Positions 1,759-25,342 of a stretch of 36,018 nucleotides of DNA are shown piece by piece. The first letter of the stretch is position 1, and each line of letters starts with the position of its first letter. The stretch is from positions 1-36,018 of the IMG/VR virus record IMGVR_UViG_3300017593_002037; one strand, written 5' to 3'. The notes under the pieces were generated by a model. That model had not been told where the DNA came from, did not search any database, and saw only the letters and a program-made list of their open reading frames with translations. Source of the DNA: a virus. Position numbers and translations under genes: made by a program.

Positions 1759-2415
1759 TTATAGTGCGAGCGCGTGAGCCCACATCGTATCCAGTTGCTC
1801 GTCATTTAGCCCGAGCAGCTCAGCCATGTAAACCACGCTGTCGCTTGTACGTACAAACTCAGTCGCTTCAGTGTATTCGATTTCAATACGAGCTTTTAAT
1901 GCTGCGTCATCAATACCGGCTATCGCGCTTTCGATATCAGAAAGCAAGTCGTTTTCCATTAATACGAGCTTAAACTGCCTTCGGGTCAATGCCCGCAGGT
2001 AAACACCGTTGTCAGCAGCCAGACCAAGCAAGGCTTTTTGGTCGCGTCCCCATTGTCTGCACTCTTCGACATAATCAGCATATGCACTGAATGTCGGTGA
2101 TGATGAATTGCGGATCTCTTTTAGCTCATCAGTGATGCTATACCGCTCTGCAATTTTGTCTTTAACGCGCTCATTGATAAGCTGTACGTGCGTAGAGTTA
2201 GACTTAATAAGCTCTCGTAACTCGTTTGTCAGTACGACAGTCTCGATGCTATCTGCAATCTCTGTCGGCTGGTCGTCAGAAAGCTCTGTGTCATCATGTA
2301 TGCTGACGTATGTTGTCCCATCTATTGTGCAAAGCTCAGTCGCGTCTTCAGGCGCATCTAAGAGCTTTGTGATGTCGCGTGTGATAAATTTTTGGTAGCT
2401 GACGATATAAGCCAT
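1759..2415 (-). CDS. hypothetical phage tail-associated protein
   Basis: A 218-aa soluble acidic protein. The C-terminal 80 residues (from LTRRQFKLVL to the MWAHALAL end) match a short helical domain I recognise from many phage genes next to tail fibres or lysis cassettes; its biochemical role is not established. The N-terminus (MAYIVSYQKF) is unassigned. The gene overlaps the end of the reverse transcriptase by 68 nt in another frame and has GGAG nine bases before its ATG, so its translation may be coupled to the DGR. Tail-fibre assembly or chaperoning is an inference from position only. Confidence 0.6.
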   Translation of the reverse strand: MAYIVSYQKFITRDITKLLDAPEDATELCTIDGTTYVSIHDDTELSDDQPTEIADSIETVVLTNELRELIKSNSTHVQLINERVKDKIAERYSITDELKEIRNSSSPTFSAYADYVEECRQWGRDQKALLGLAADNGVYLRALTRRQFKLVLMENDLLSDIESAIAGIDDAALKARIEIEYTEATEFVRTSDSVVYMAELLGLNDEQLDTMWAHALAL

Positions 2416-3370
2416 GGTTTTGTTGCTCCGTATAATTTAATAAGTGTTGTAGCGAGTGAGTTTTTGAGGCGTGCGCTAAGTGCGATATTAAAGAGTCGAG
2501 CTTATTATTTCTGACTGATTTTCTGGCTTTATATAAGCTATGCTTTCTGATAAATCTTGCTGACGACCAGGTTCTATACCCGCAAAAATTAGTGCCTTTT
2601 TTTGTGTTTGCAATCGTTGATCGTGATAGCGTGAGCTTTAGCTCGTTGTTCACAAAGTGGGTTAGTTTTTCTCTGTAGTCCAGCGCTTCAGCGCGGGTTA
2701 AGCCAAATAATAAGAAGTCGTCAACATAGCGACAATACCCCGCGCGTGGCTTCAATACTCGCCTAGCATAATGGTCGAGTGGATTCATATAGATTAAGGC
2801 GTACATTTGCGATAGTAAGTTACCGATCGGTATGCCGGTTGGCTCTTGATACTCTGCAAACATCATCATTAAAGCGACGAGTTTTTTGTCTTTTATTTTT
2901 CTTTCGATTGACTTTTTGAGTATTGGCCGATCAATACTGTAAAAAAACTTTTTAATATCTAGCTGCAGTGTATAAGTGCCTGGGCCTGCTCGTCTTAGCG
3001 CCTCTTGCGCATAGTCGGCCGCTTTATGCGTGCCAAGCCCGACCCTGCAAGCAAAAGATTGACCTATAAATGTCTTTTCAAATATCGGCATGGTCTTGGC
3101 GTATATCGCGTGCTGTACTACGCAGTCTCTAAATGCCGGTGCATAAATATCTCTTTGCTTTGGCTCATGAATCGTAAACTTAAAATAGGGCTGTGGCTTA
3201 TAAATGCCGGATGTCAGCTCATTATGTAATGCTAATAACTCAGTCGCTAAGCGCTTCTCAAACTCAAAGCACCCGCGTCGGCCGCCTTTGCTTTTCTTGG
3301 CATCTAAAAAGCCTTGGTATAACGCTTCTTTTGAGACAATAGAGTCGTATAAATTACCCACTCTCTTCAT
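2348..3370 (-). CDS. DGR reverse transcriptase
   Basis: A 340-aa reverse transcriptase of the diversity-generating retroelement class. It copies the template repeat RNA into cDNA with mutations at adenines, which then replaces the variable repeat of the tail fibre gene. Visible motifs are LQLDIKKFF (catalytic Asp138), the DGR-typical IPIGNLLSQ (182-188) and the catalytic YVDD box (215-218). The open frame runs 25 codons upstream, but the ATG at 3370 is preceded by AAGGA five bases away and gives the usual DGR N-terminus MKRVGNLYDSI. The length is normal for the family. The order target-Avd-TR-RT on the minus strand matches Bordetella phage BPP-1. The last residues overlap the next gene. Confidence 0.95.
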   Translation of the reverse strand: MKRVGNLYDSIVSKEALYQGFLDAKKSKGGRRGCFEFEKRLATELLALHNELTSGIYKPQPYFKFTIHEPKQRDIYAPAFRDCVVQHAIYAKTMPIFEKTFIGQSFACRVGLGTHKAADYAQEALRRAGPGTYTLQLDIKKFFYSIDRPILKKSIERKIKDKKLVALMMMFAEYQEPTGIPIGNLLSQMYALIYMNPLDHYARRVLKPRAGYCRYVDDFLLFGLTRAEALDYREKLTHFVNNELKLTLSRSTIANTKKGTNFCGYRTWSSARFIRKHSLYKARKSVRNNKLDSLISHLAHASKTHSLQHLLNYTEQQNHGLYRQLPKIYHTRHHKALRCA

Positions 3371-3475
3371 AAATATCCTTAAAAAAATAACGCGACAGAT
3401 TTTCGATAACTCTACTAAAAAACCGCGCTTAAACCGATTTCGCATATTGCAGGAAAATGCCTCCCTTGGCGCCAG

Positions 3476-3490
3476 TCAGCAACTTGCTGA
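3476..3490. repeat. inverted repeat downstream of template repeat
   Basis: A perfect 7-1-7 inverted repeat, TCAGCAA C TTGCTGA, 18 nt past the 3' end of TR on the coding strand and inside the TR-RT spacer. The spacer from TR to the RT start is 137 nt. It could form an RNA hairpin in the template transcript. Confidence 0.55.
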
Positions 3491-3507
3491 TTGAGGTGAT
3501 GCCGAGT

Positions 3508-3610
3508 CCGCCCGGAAACCAATGTTGTTGTTACTGTTCGTCCGAGAGTTGTTCAAATTGACGCACCAGACCCCAGCGTTCGAGTTGTTGTTCCAATTAC
3601 CGCCAACGAT
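3508..3610 (-). repeat. DGR template repeat (TR)
   Basis: A non-coding 103-bp copy of the 3' end of the tail fibre gene, lying between Avd and the reverse transcriptase. Read on the minus strand in the frame of the target gene it encodes a peptide with 12 Asn codons (AAC or AAT), at every position that varies in VR. It differs from VR (4069-4171) at 12 sites, all adenines on this strand. The GC-rich 3' end (TTTCCGGGCGG) is identical in TR and VR. The base just beyond differs (A in TR, C in VR), as expected for the IMH*/IMH distinction. Confidence 0.95.
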
Positions 3611-3645
3611 AGGGCACATATTAAGGCATCTCCCCTTGAAAATTG

Positions 3646-4026
3646 CTATCTTGACGACTTAATCCAGCCGCCGATAATCTTGCCTATTTCGTCGATTTTC
3701 ATCGATATAGATAAGTACCGTTTAGTGTTAAGTTGCTCGTCGGTCATCTTGTCACTTTTTGGGTGACCAAAATAGGCCAATTCAAACGCCAATCTTACTT
3801 GCATTCTGAGCTGCTCATGCTTGATGTCTAAATTAGTTAACGTTGTTTTCTTGTGATAGCGCTTTTGCGCTTCGACAATTAGATCGTACAAGTCGTAAGC
3901 TGTTGTCCTTATCTTTAGAGCCAACCCATGGCGTTCATGGGTTGGGAAATGATTTAAATAAATATTTAATAACTTCATCGCCTGTATAAATTTACGATCA
4001 AGATTTGCCTCGCTATCTACTGCCAC
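3646..4026 (-). CDS. DGR accessory variability determinant (Avd)
   Basis: A 126-aa, mostly helical, basic protein between the tail fibre target and the template repeat, the classic position of avd. Avd proteins form a pentameric four-helix-bundle barrel that binds the reverse transcriptase and template RNA and is required for mutagenic retrohoming. The sequence has the expected helical pattern (FIQAMKLLNIYLNHFPTHER, ALKIRTTAYDLYDLIVEAQK, and a final IDEIGKIIGGWIKSS). The start is GTG at 4026 with GGAG five bases upstream. The gene begins 31 nt after the target's stop codon. Confidence 0.9.
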   Translation of the reverse strand: MAVDSEANLDRKFIQAMKLLNIYLNHFPTHERHGLALKIRTTAYDLYDLIVEAQKRYHKKTTLTNLDIKHEQLRMQVRLAFELAYFGHPKSDKMTDEQLNTKRYLSISMKIDEIGKIIGGWIKSSR

Positions 4027-4057
4027 TTAAACTCCTTCGCTATCGCTCAGTCAAACG

Positions 4058-5923
4058 CTAATACAAGGCCGCCCGGAAACCAATGTCGCTGTAACTGTAC
4101 GTCCGAGAGGTGATCAAATAGACGCACCAGACCCCAGCGTACGAGTTGGCGTACCAATGACCGCCAACGATGGGGCACGCATCTTCCATTCGGTTATCAT
4201 AAAATCTATCGCTACCAAATGCGTTGGTGCCTGTAGCGCCGCCAAGTTGCGGGATACCTGCACATGATGCGAGCCAAGCTGCGCCAGTAGTCGCGGAAGA
4301 AAAAACCTGGTTAGTAGTGGAGCCGATATAAATACTGCGATTCTCACCGCTCATCTCGCCAAAACTTGCGCCTAGCGACTCATAGTTAGCAGTCATAGAC
4401 GCTGTGCCCCATGCATCTGTTGCTAGCGTCGCGCCACTCGTGAGTGCCGATGCTTTGGCTGTGGGTTTTAGCGCGTAAAAGTTCCCGTCTTTTTGTGTAA
4501 GGCCAAGGGCGACCTCAAACATATTGCCGTTAAGATCGGCTATGCCAGAGTCCTGACCGTTGTGCGTTGTCTTAGCAAACGGCTTAGCACTGCCAGTCTT
4601 ACCCGCGTTTAAATAACCTGTGCCCGCATAAGTGACTGTCGTATCATTAACATCGCGCAACGCGTTATTGTTGTTGCCTTTCGGAAAATTATTAACGCCT
4701 GTCGCATCATACCAAGCGCACGCCGCTGAGCTTGTTGCTGCTTGCGCATGAGCCATACTCAGTAGCGATAGTGCGCGCTGGATAAAGATAGTTGTGACAA
4801 AAAAATCAGCGCCGCGTGTTTTTACCGCATCGATAGCACCCGCATTATTATTGCCTGGTGTGCCATTTAAGCCACTGTAAGGGTTATTAGCCGTGCTTGA
4901 TGACAATGGATTGCCGTTTTTGATTGAGCTTGCGATACCCCCATTATTACTTGCTTGATATTTATCAACAAAAAATCCATCTTTTACAGTGTCGTTGTCA
5001 TAAAACGCGCGGTGTAATGCATAACCCGCCTCGTTTGCGGCGTCTACATCTGCAAAGTCATAAGCCGATTTAACATCCAATGCGTTGACGCCATATTGCG
5101 CGTAGCGCGGACTATCAGCATGGCCCCAGCGATAATAAAACAGCGGCACATAAACCATGGCTGAGCCGTCGTTATATTGATAGTTGCCGTAATTTTCGTG
5201 GCCTTTGATCGCTGTGCCTTGCATTGGTGACATGCCGAGTGGCAGCTTGTTAGTGATGCCAACGCCAAAACCAATGGCGCCTGGCGTGCCAATATCGCCA
5301 AAACTAGGGGCAACTGTATCGGTAAATAGCTTTTGCGAGACCGCTGTTGTTGTTGATTGACCAAATTCGTTGGCAATGGGAACGGGAGGGCCTTGCTCTC
5401 CCTTGTCGCCGCGCGGTACGGTAAGCTCAATTGAGCGGTCTTCGGGTGCGCCGCTTAAAACGACACTGGCATCAGATCCGGCGGGGCCGGTCTTGGCAGT
5501 GACAGCAGCGAGGGTGCCGGTTGCGCCCTTGTCGCCGCGTGGGATGCCCAACGCTATCGTGCGGTCACCTGGCGTGCCGCCCATTGTCGCGGTAGCAGTC
5601 GATCCCGGCGTAAGTGTTGTTGCGCTGATTGAGCTGATAATTGCAGCGTCGCCGGTATCGCCCTTATAGGCTTGGGATGCGAGCGCATCGCTGACAGCCT
5701 GACTGATTGTTTTGCGTTCAATACCGTTTACGCTAACAGTGCCTGTTTGTTGGCTGTAAACAAGCTCTAAACCTCGTAAAAATTCAAGATAATACTCAAG
5801 CGTTCGGACGTCAGTACTAAGTCGTCGGGGTACGATAGTTTGAGCGTCGTCATTAACAAAGCTAGACACTGTAGATACATCTACCTCTCCATTTTGCATT
5901 TTTTGCACAATTGTTCCGGACAT
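4058..5923 (-). CDS. tail fibre, DGR variable protein with CLec-like end
   Basis: A 621-aa receptor-binding tail fibre and the diversified target of the DGR. The N-terminal 70 residues probably attach to the tail tip. Residues about 90-205 hold two copies of a unit ending PRGDKG with short collagen-like GDKGATG and GDKGEQGPP segments. From about residue 245 the sequence resembles the formylglycine-generating/C-type-lectin fold used by DGR proteins. The last 39 residues are encoded by VR, with diversified positions H589, Y591, A592, N593, Y595, Y602, I604, T605, Y609, Y611, S612 and D613, ending IGFRAALY. The open frame extends upstream to 6124 over the J gene end, but the ATG at 5923 has GGGAG in front and gives a sensible start (MSGTIVQKM). 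Confidence 0.93.
   Translation of the reverse strand: MSGTIVQKMQNGEVDVSTVSSFVNDDAQTIVPRRLSTDVRTLEYYLEFLRGLELVYSQQTGTVSVNGIERKTISQAVSDALASQAYKGDTGDAAIISSISATTLTPGSTATATMGGTPGDRTIALGIPRGDKGATGTLAAVTAKTGPAGSDASVVLSGAPEDRSIELTVPRGDKGEQGPPVPIANEFGQSTTTAVSQKLFTDTVAPSFGDIGTPGAIGFGVGITNKLPLGMSPMQGTAIKGHENYGNYQYNDGSAMVYVPLFYYRWGHADSPRYAQYGVNALDVKSAYDFADVDAANEAGYALHRAFYDNDTVKDGFFVDKYQASNNGGIASSIKNGNPLSSSTANNPYSGLNGTPGNNNAGAIDAVKTRGADFFVTTIFIQRALSLLSMAHAQAATSSAACAWYDATGVNNFPKGNNNNALRDVNDTTVTYAGTGYLNAGKTGSAKPFAKTTHNGQDSGIADLNGNMFEVALGLTQKDGNFYALKPTAKASALTSGATLATDAWGTASMTANYESLGASFGEMSGENRSIYIGSTTNQVFSSATTGAAWLASCAGIPQLGGATGTNAFGSDRFYDNRMEDACPIVGGHWYANSYAGVWCVYLITSRTYSYSDIGFRAALY
4069..4171 (-). repeat. 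DGR variable repeat (VR)
   Basis: The last 103 bp of the tail fibre reading frame (apart from three codons) match TR at 91 of 103 positions. All 12 differences lie at template adenines, in codon positions 1 or 2, and turn TR Asn codons into His, Tyr (5 times), Ala, Ile, Thr, Ser and Asp; one Asn is unchanged. The conserved 3' segment (TTTCCGGGCGG) is the likely initiation-of-mutagenic-homing site. Just beyond the 5' end, at 4172, a non-adenine difference marks the edge of recent copying. Confidence 0.95.
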
Positions 5924-5936
5924 ATCAAACTCCCAT

Positions 5937-5966
5937 AAAAAAGCCCACGCTATTTCTAACGTGGGT
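5937..5966 (-). terminator. intrinsic terminator between J and tail fibre
   Basis: The stem is CCCACG (5944-5949) against CGTGGG (5960-5965), followed on the minus strand by six Ts. The same 36-nt block (5934-5969) recurs identically at 25307-25342. It lies downstream of gene J and directly before the tail fibre ribosome site. Confidence 0.8.
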
Positions 5967-5984
5967 AAAAGTAGTAAAAGTAGT

Positions 5985-25279: not shown

Positions 25280-25309
25280 GGGTATCACACCTCACTAAAC
25301 GTTAGGCAT

Positions 25310-25342
25310 AAAAAAGCCCACGCTATTTCTAACGTGGGTAAA
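25310..25342 (-). terminator. intrinsic terminator at head of late operon
   Basis: The same hairpin as 5937-5966: CCCACG/CGTGGG with six Ts on the minus strand, within a 36-nt perfect repeat. It lies just before the first late gene. Confidence 0.8.

Follow-up and report, generated by a model that had tools for sequence, protein, structure and literature searches.

A most likely functional diversity-generating retroelement and its candidate variant homing hairpin in a Psychrobacter-type siphophage

The cassette and its variation

The virus record IMGVR_UViG_3300017593_002037 (positions 1-36,018), whose full length of 36,018 bases is referred to below as the window, carries all parts of a diversity-generating retroelement (DGR). 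On the minus strand, they follow one another as target, Avd, template repeat (TR) and reverse transcriptase (RT), with every reading frame intact, in agreement with an earlier note made from the letters of the window. The criteria used to define a DGR were an RT with the [I/V/L]GxxxSQ motif, at least 75% of the mismatches between TR and variable repeat (VR) at TR adenines, an Avd protein, a C-type lectin target with a C-terminal VR, a structured spacer RNA between TR and RT, and a VR that changes while the TR stays fixed. Related loci with and without a DGR were compared with the window and are designated by L-numbers.

The two repeats carry the signature of adenine-specific mutagenesis. The TR (3505-3617, minus strand) is non-coding, and the VR (4066-4178, minus strand) comprises codons 582-619 of the 621-amino-acid target, which ends in the VR as proposed. 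The length of 103 bp previously given for the TR is corrected here, as the similarity spans 113 bp (TR 3617-3505, VR 4178-4066) in a gapless alignment with 14 mismatches (88% identity, BLASTN E value 8e-36). Six of these are A>T, four A>C, three A>G and one T>C, so that 13 of the 14 are found opposite a TR adenine, which exceeds the 75% threshold (hypergeometric P = 2.1e-8 for at least 13 of 14, with 29 adenines in 113 bases). The closing A>C (TR GGACT, VR GGCCT) falls into the invariant 3' end of the VR, CATTGGTTTCCGGGCGGCCT (4066-4085, minus strand), which resembles an initiation of mutagenic homing (IMH) sequence. It recurs at the 3' end of nearly all TR/VR pairs of the relatives, which argues for a fixed IMH/IMH* homing-site difference and not for a random mutation. 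With this position set aside, 12 variable adenines proper differ between the TR and VR of the window. All TR adenines occupy codon positions 1 and 2 of the VR frame, in which the TR presents 12 AAY codons, and the permitted changes yield no stop; the VR itself reads open, without stop codons. The product of the residue choices, a theoretical ceiling, amounts to approximately 4e17 for the VR. Among the other loci, no repeat pair was detected in L009, and both the repeat pair of L015 and the two top pairs of L014 were rejected as TR/VR.

The RT (340 amino acids, 2348-3370, minus strand) matches the profiles PF00078 (RVT_1, E value 6.5e-14) and phrog_1423 'Reverse transcriptase' (E value 4.9e-90). 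The YVDD and IGNLLSQ motifs that had been pointed out in this protein are present and are shared by the RT of every close relative. The start codon is most likely located at 3370, where AAGGAT precedes ATG AAG AGA, because the RTs of the relatives begin with MKR; a 365-amino-acid open reading frame starting at 3445 extends into the spacer of the template RNA. A tree was calculated for 60 RTs, 44 from DGR-type loci and 16 other Moraxellaceae RTs that include group II intron-like enzymes. One branch splits the two sets with a Shimodaira-Hasegawa-like approximate likelihood ratio test (SH-aLRT) value of 91 in this tree, which was obtained by a quick search and has several long outgroup branches. 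The phylogenetic check suggested for the RT thus places it in the DGR group, where L010 (Psychrobacter sp. 72-O-c) and L002 are its closest neighbours. The Avd protein (3646-4026, minus strand), confirmed at 126 amino acids, is read from a GTG start and matches PF22296 bAvd (E value 3.5e-19, 69.7 bits with a cut-off of 40) and phrog_3206 Avd (E value 1.9e-20), each over at least 110 amino acids.

The target (4058-5923, minus strand) is a tail-tip/fibre protein with collagen-like repeats and a predicted C-terminal C-type lectin domain, and its start is most likely at 5923, resulting in 621 amino acids. A Pfam search of the target gave no match. An AlphaFold2 model of residues 198-621 (25 sequences) reached a mean predicted local distance difference test (pLDDT) value of 82.5 and a predicted template modelling (pTM) score of 0.89. 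Among solved structures, its best match is the DGR variable protein TaqVP (5vf4; Foldseek E value 1e-12, Z 26.4 over 294 residues); TvpA and the Mtd variants come next at Z 10-11, mixed with formylglycine-generating-enzyme-type folds. According to this model, the target carries a C-type lectin fold with the VR at its C-terminus. Between TR and RT, a spacer RNA of 134 nt (3371-3504, minus strand) is predicted, in which close relatives keep the blocks AAGGGAGRCRTTTTCC and GCGAAATCGG. Its consensus fold is supported by two-sided changes for 12 of 21 pairs, as expected for a structured spacer. Both the conservation and the fold agree with the published role of the spacer in RT-Avd binding and in the priming of complementary DNA (cDNA) synthesis (PMC12875486).

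Sequence variation among relatives provides the evidence for activity. In two groups of loci (L062/L065/L066 and L067/L071), the TRs are identical and the 400-bp flanks identical or almost so, while the VRs differ at 2-19 positions, all of which are template adenines. A further set of loci was found by the core of the hairpin described below plus the IMH. It includes a group of seven (L118, L127, L128, L150, L176, L179 and L191) with identical TRs and flanks, whose VRs, except for one identical pair, show 10-18 differences, at most one of them outside template adenines. Several other groups of the same set follow this pattern with VRs changed at template adenines, and over 64 loci sharing the hairpin core, 919 of 956 TR/VR mismatches are located at A. 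These comparisons indicate that DGRs with an identical hairpin core are active in relatives. Since TRs and flanks stay identical while VRs differ nearly exclusively at template adenines, the system is an ordinary DGR. As a separate observation, L059 (6720-8016) retains the hairpin and a partial avd match without detectable RT or TR and looks like a decaying DGR.

The hairpin after the variable repeat

A hairpin element with the sequence ACT-GA-GC-GATA-GC-GA-AGG-AGT (4031-4051, minus strand), to which the earlier note did not refer, is found past the stop codon of the target. Its 12-nt core, GAGCGATAGCGA (4048-4037), starts 17 nt after the end of the VR and presents a GATA loop. A hairpin/cruciform after the VR was proven for BPP-1 (Guo et al., 2011; PMC3240598), and homing of this DGR falls when the stem is shortened or the loop altered (PMC3240598). 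The hairpins of phage DGRs were described as GC-rich stems of 7-10 bp with 4-nt GRNA loops, located 4-34 bp after the VR (PMC3240598). The window element shows this loop and this distance, but not the paired GC-rich stem of 7-10 bp: its core consists of two Watson-Crick pairs and a tandem G·A mismatch, and its outer stem of 3 bp. As no perfect inverted repeat was found after the VR in the window and its close relatives, a mismatch-tolerant inspection was employed.

Related DGRs contain the core consensus GA-RC-GRTA-GY-GA as a single copy directly behind the target stop (33 unique sites), and over 861 kb of loci it gave 38 hits on the plus strand and one on the minus strand. It was not found after the target in six loci without a detected DGR (L056, L064, L085, L089, L092 and L093). 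These loci carry the same target family with neither Avd/RT nor hairpin detected and represent natural DGR-free tail genes. Among the 33 sites, the outer Watson-Crick position of the core is G-C in 20, A-T in nine and G-T in four, with G·A and then A·G beyond it. Outside the core pattern, L095 reads GATCGGTAGAGA, with a T-A pair and the G·A block kept. Outer arms of differing sequence pair with each other (GATGCC/GGCATC, GAGCCC/GGGCTC, GGCCAC/GTGGCC, GCCGC/GCGGC as in L099, GTCT/AGAC and AACT/AGTT). The outer-stem pairing score of the 33 sites is 74, compared to 27 +/- 7 with 3' arms swapped among loci, and none of 2000 shuffles scored as high. A larger set of 51 unique sites, chosen by core and IMH only and sharing a few sites with the smaller one, scored 173.5 versus 124 +/- 7.4 (again 0 of 2000 as high), with stems of at least 4 in 37 sites. 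In 349 Moraxellaceae genomes, the core-plus-IMH pattern is present at five sites only, which are the five DGR loci found through their RTs, and no match appears among the reversed controls shown.

At the same spot, the sister loci L062, L060, L055, L096 and L050 possess an ordinary stem with the same loop class, and the RT tree implies six or more changes between the ordinary stem and the G·A form (with labels partly assigned by eye). Eleven of 14 named DGR phages surveyed have a GRNA hairpin after the VR with an uninterrupted stem of at least six pairs (G-T counted), and the G·A block was found in none of the 14. The core string was also found in no DGR paper of the searchable literature, where most subscription papers fall outside. 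The hairpin is therefore a variant that departs from the published descriptions found. In DNA, unusual stability is a property both of tandem G·A pairs in a PyGAPu context and of C(GNA)G mini-loops. Because the window core fits both in outline, the variant probably adopts the same hairpin with its exposed loop, although it lacks a long GC stem. A kink-turn reading of the hairpin was rejected because, in a geometry judged by eye, the bulge is not on the side of the GA pairs that a kink-turn would require. Since G·A and ordinary forms interchange in evolution, the shape adjacent to the loop and not the length of the stem would be the feature that is recognised. On balance, it is somewhat favoured that phage DGRs of a large group rely on such a distinct homing hairpin, which would owe its stability to tandem sheared G·A pairs and to a mini-loop of the GRNA type instead of a GC-rich stem, while its outer stem can vary.

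Proposed mechanism and alternative readings

The window is read as a temperate siphophage of the Psychrobacter type whose DGR is complete and, most likely, functional, with homing directed by the hairpin variant; the probability of this reading is put at roughly 95%. The avd-TR-spacer region would be transcribed, and Avd and RT would act on the folded spacer RNA, reverse-transcribe the TR and misincorporate opposite adenines. The cDNA would then take the place of the 3'-terminal VR in the tail-tip gene. This replacement would be steered by the IMH at the VR end and by the hairpin past the target stop, whose variant form here combines a GRNA loop with two Watson-Crick pairs and, beyond an invariant tandem G·A block, a short outer stem that covaries. 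As twelve AAY codons of the lectin domain could be changed, the phage population might sample many receptor-binding surfaces. We infer the biochemical steps by analogy with the work on BPP-1, and receptor binding is likewise presumed.

Several observations weigh against this reading. The earlier note had proposed to look for variation of the VR with a fixed TR, and such variation was seen in relatives (10-19 sites, all or nearly all template adenines), whereas an exact 25-base TR search of IMG/VR revealed no second isolate of the window phage itself. In addition, the identical Psychrobacter 72-O-c prophage copies L010 and L012 have identical VRs, and for both reasons we infer the activity of the window copy. 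The Avd protein scores 75.3 bits with the NCBIfam model DivGenRetAVD, slightly below its cut-off of 80. Finally, most relatives have a stronger hairpin than the window, whose outer stem (ACT/AGT) comprises 3 bp and a 3-nt bulge, and ViennaRNA nearest-neighbour DNA folding yields -0.8 kcal/mol, no better than shuffles. Since the folding model gave no credit to the tandem G·A, this test is weak either way.

The weak hairpin would also fit a cassette that is decayed or silent here, with a VR that was diversified formerly and is now frozen. The single T>C mismatch at a non-A site points in the same direction, and L059, with its partial avd match and no detectable RT, demonstrates that decayed cassettes exist. 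Such a fate is nevertheless very improbable in view of the intact reading frames, the conserved RT motifs and spacer, the open VR and the activity indicated for relatives with the same 12-nt core. Because the 12-mer after the VR sits just upstream of the avd start, it could alternatively represent a regulatory RNA or a protein-binding element for avd instead of a homing DNA hairpin. The distance from its end to the avd GTG is 10 nt, and it borders on the ribosome-binding site; the DGR-less loci lack avd as well as the motif, and thermodynamic support for the hairpin is weak in the Psychrobacter clade. This regulatory role is considered unlikely, as place and GRNA loop are the same as in the proven BPP-1 homing hairpin (PMC3240598), sister loci have an ordinary stem at the same spot and the outer arms covary. 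That the RT belongs to a group II intron or a defence system, and that the repeat pair arose by chance or by an unrelated duplication, has a negligible probability. The NCBIfam group II model matches with an E value of 2e-34, though far below its cut-off (119 of 300 bits), and the enzyme contains IGNLLSQ and not QGxxxSP, falls into the DGR group of the tree and has Avd as its neighbour. The repeats display adenine-specific mismatches in the window and in relatives, and the TR/VR statistics contradict a chance origin.

Homing by means of the hairpin variant would have consequences beyond this phage. Many phage DGRs targeting tail proteins were catalogued in large surveys (PMC8144416), and with the DGR itself a further lineage of tail-tip diversifiers has been sampled, in Psychrobacter; no report of a DGR in this genus was found in the searchable literature. 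How homing recognises the target hairpin is an unsolved question; by retaining the loop while an invariant tandem G·A block stands in for Watson-Crick pairs, a natural variant limits which features could be recognised. The variant would also extend DGR hairpin detection to elements that searches for perfect inverted repeats miss.

The phage, cassette movement and known systems

By its gene content, the phage is identified as a temperate siphophage of the Psychrobacter/Acinetobacter type (Moraxellaceae), and the Moraxellaceae-like HK97-type siphophage of the earlier note is recovered. The window encodes an HK97-type portal and major head protein, siphophage tail genes, a TipJ-type tip protein, an integrase and a CI-like repressor. 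Two sister phages, Psychrobacter phage Psymv2 and Acinetobacter phage AbIPP1, resemble the window in the head, early and lysis regions, where most matching segments are about 72-87% identical. At approximately 440-467, the 3' end of a host transfer-messenger RNA (tmRNA) gene constitutes the attachment site, with the same core as in Psymv2, and positions 1-430 are probably host DNA. Scans of the window for tRNA and tmRNA genes and with Rfam at gathering thresholds returned nothing. The RT is overlapped by 68 nt by p218, a tail-associated gene of 218 amino acids (1759-2415, minus strand); the overlap at 2348-2415 uses different frames, and several relatives have similar overlaps. In many DGR loci, the N-terminal 132 amino acids of p218 are encoded behind the RT; in the DGR-less loci L056 and L064, they follow the target immediately. 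A role as DGR accessory gene was therefore ruled out, and p218 belongs with the tail gene and not with the DGR.

In Psymv2 and AbIPP1, target, Avd and RT were not found between J and holin/endolysin, where other genes are located. The Psychrobacter prophages L010, L011 and L013 match the DNA of the window essentially from mid-target to about the end of the RT or of p218 (72-73%) and hardly elsewhere. From these two observations, the cassette was probably transferred as one unit among tails that otherwise differ. A terminator-like stem-loop (5944-5965, minus strand), with a 9-bp stem followed by CTTTTTTA, separates the tip gene J from the target. It is part of an exact 35-bp duplicate (5934-5968 and 25307-25341), of which only one copy is present in Psymv2 and in AbIPP1, at the position that corresponds to 25307. 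Located between J and the DGR target, the extra copy may indicate the joint of a recombination event. Psychrobacter sp. 72-O-c contains three DGR prophage copies (L010, L012 and L013). Two of these share 21 kb of identical sequence and are separated by 34.8 kb on a single contig, which may reflect a tandem prophage or an assembly effect.

Among known systems, the BPP-1 DGR (mtd-avd-TR-brt) has the gene order of the window, and the architecture claimed by the earlier note was verified on the BPP-1 record. Both systems share Avd, an IMH at the VR end, a C-terminal VR in a lectin-fold tail protein and a TR-RT spacer of similar length (144 nt in BPP-1 and 134 nt in the window). However, the RTs are 36% identical, BPP-1 is a short-tailed phage, and its hairpin has an uninterrupted 8-bp GC stem with a GAAA loop in place of the tandem-G·A variant with a GATA loop. 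DGR prophages of Psychrobacter (sp. 72-O-c, P. faecalis DSM 14664 and one further genome) have the hairpin core and order of the window and resemble it in RT (79-85% identity), Avd (79-84%) and the C-terminal part of the target (67-77%), whereas their DNA outside target-Avd-TR-RT-p218 is mostly unrelated. The closest named phage by RT is Pseudomonas phage Bise (55%), whose DGR is unannotated and includes Avd, TR and an adenine-specific VR; unlike the window, Bise has baseplate genes and an uninterrupted stem with a GGTA loop after the VR. TaqVP (5vf4), listed as a Thermus protein, is the best solved match of the target, yet only 20% identical to it in the structural alignment.

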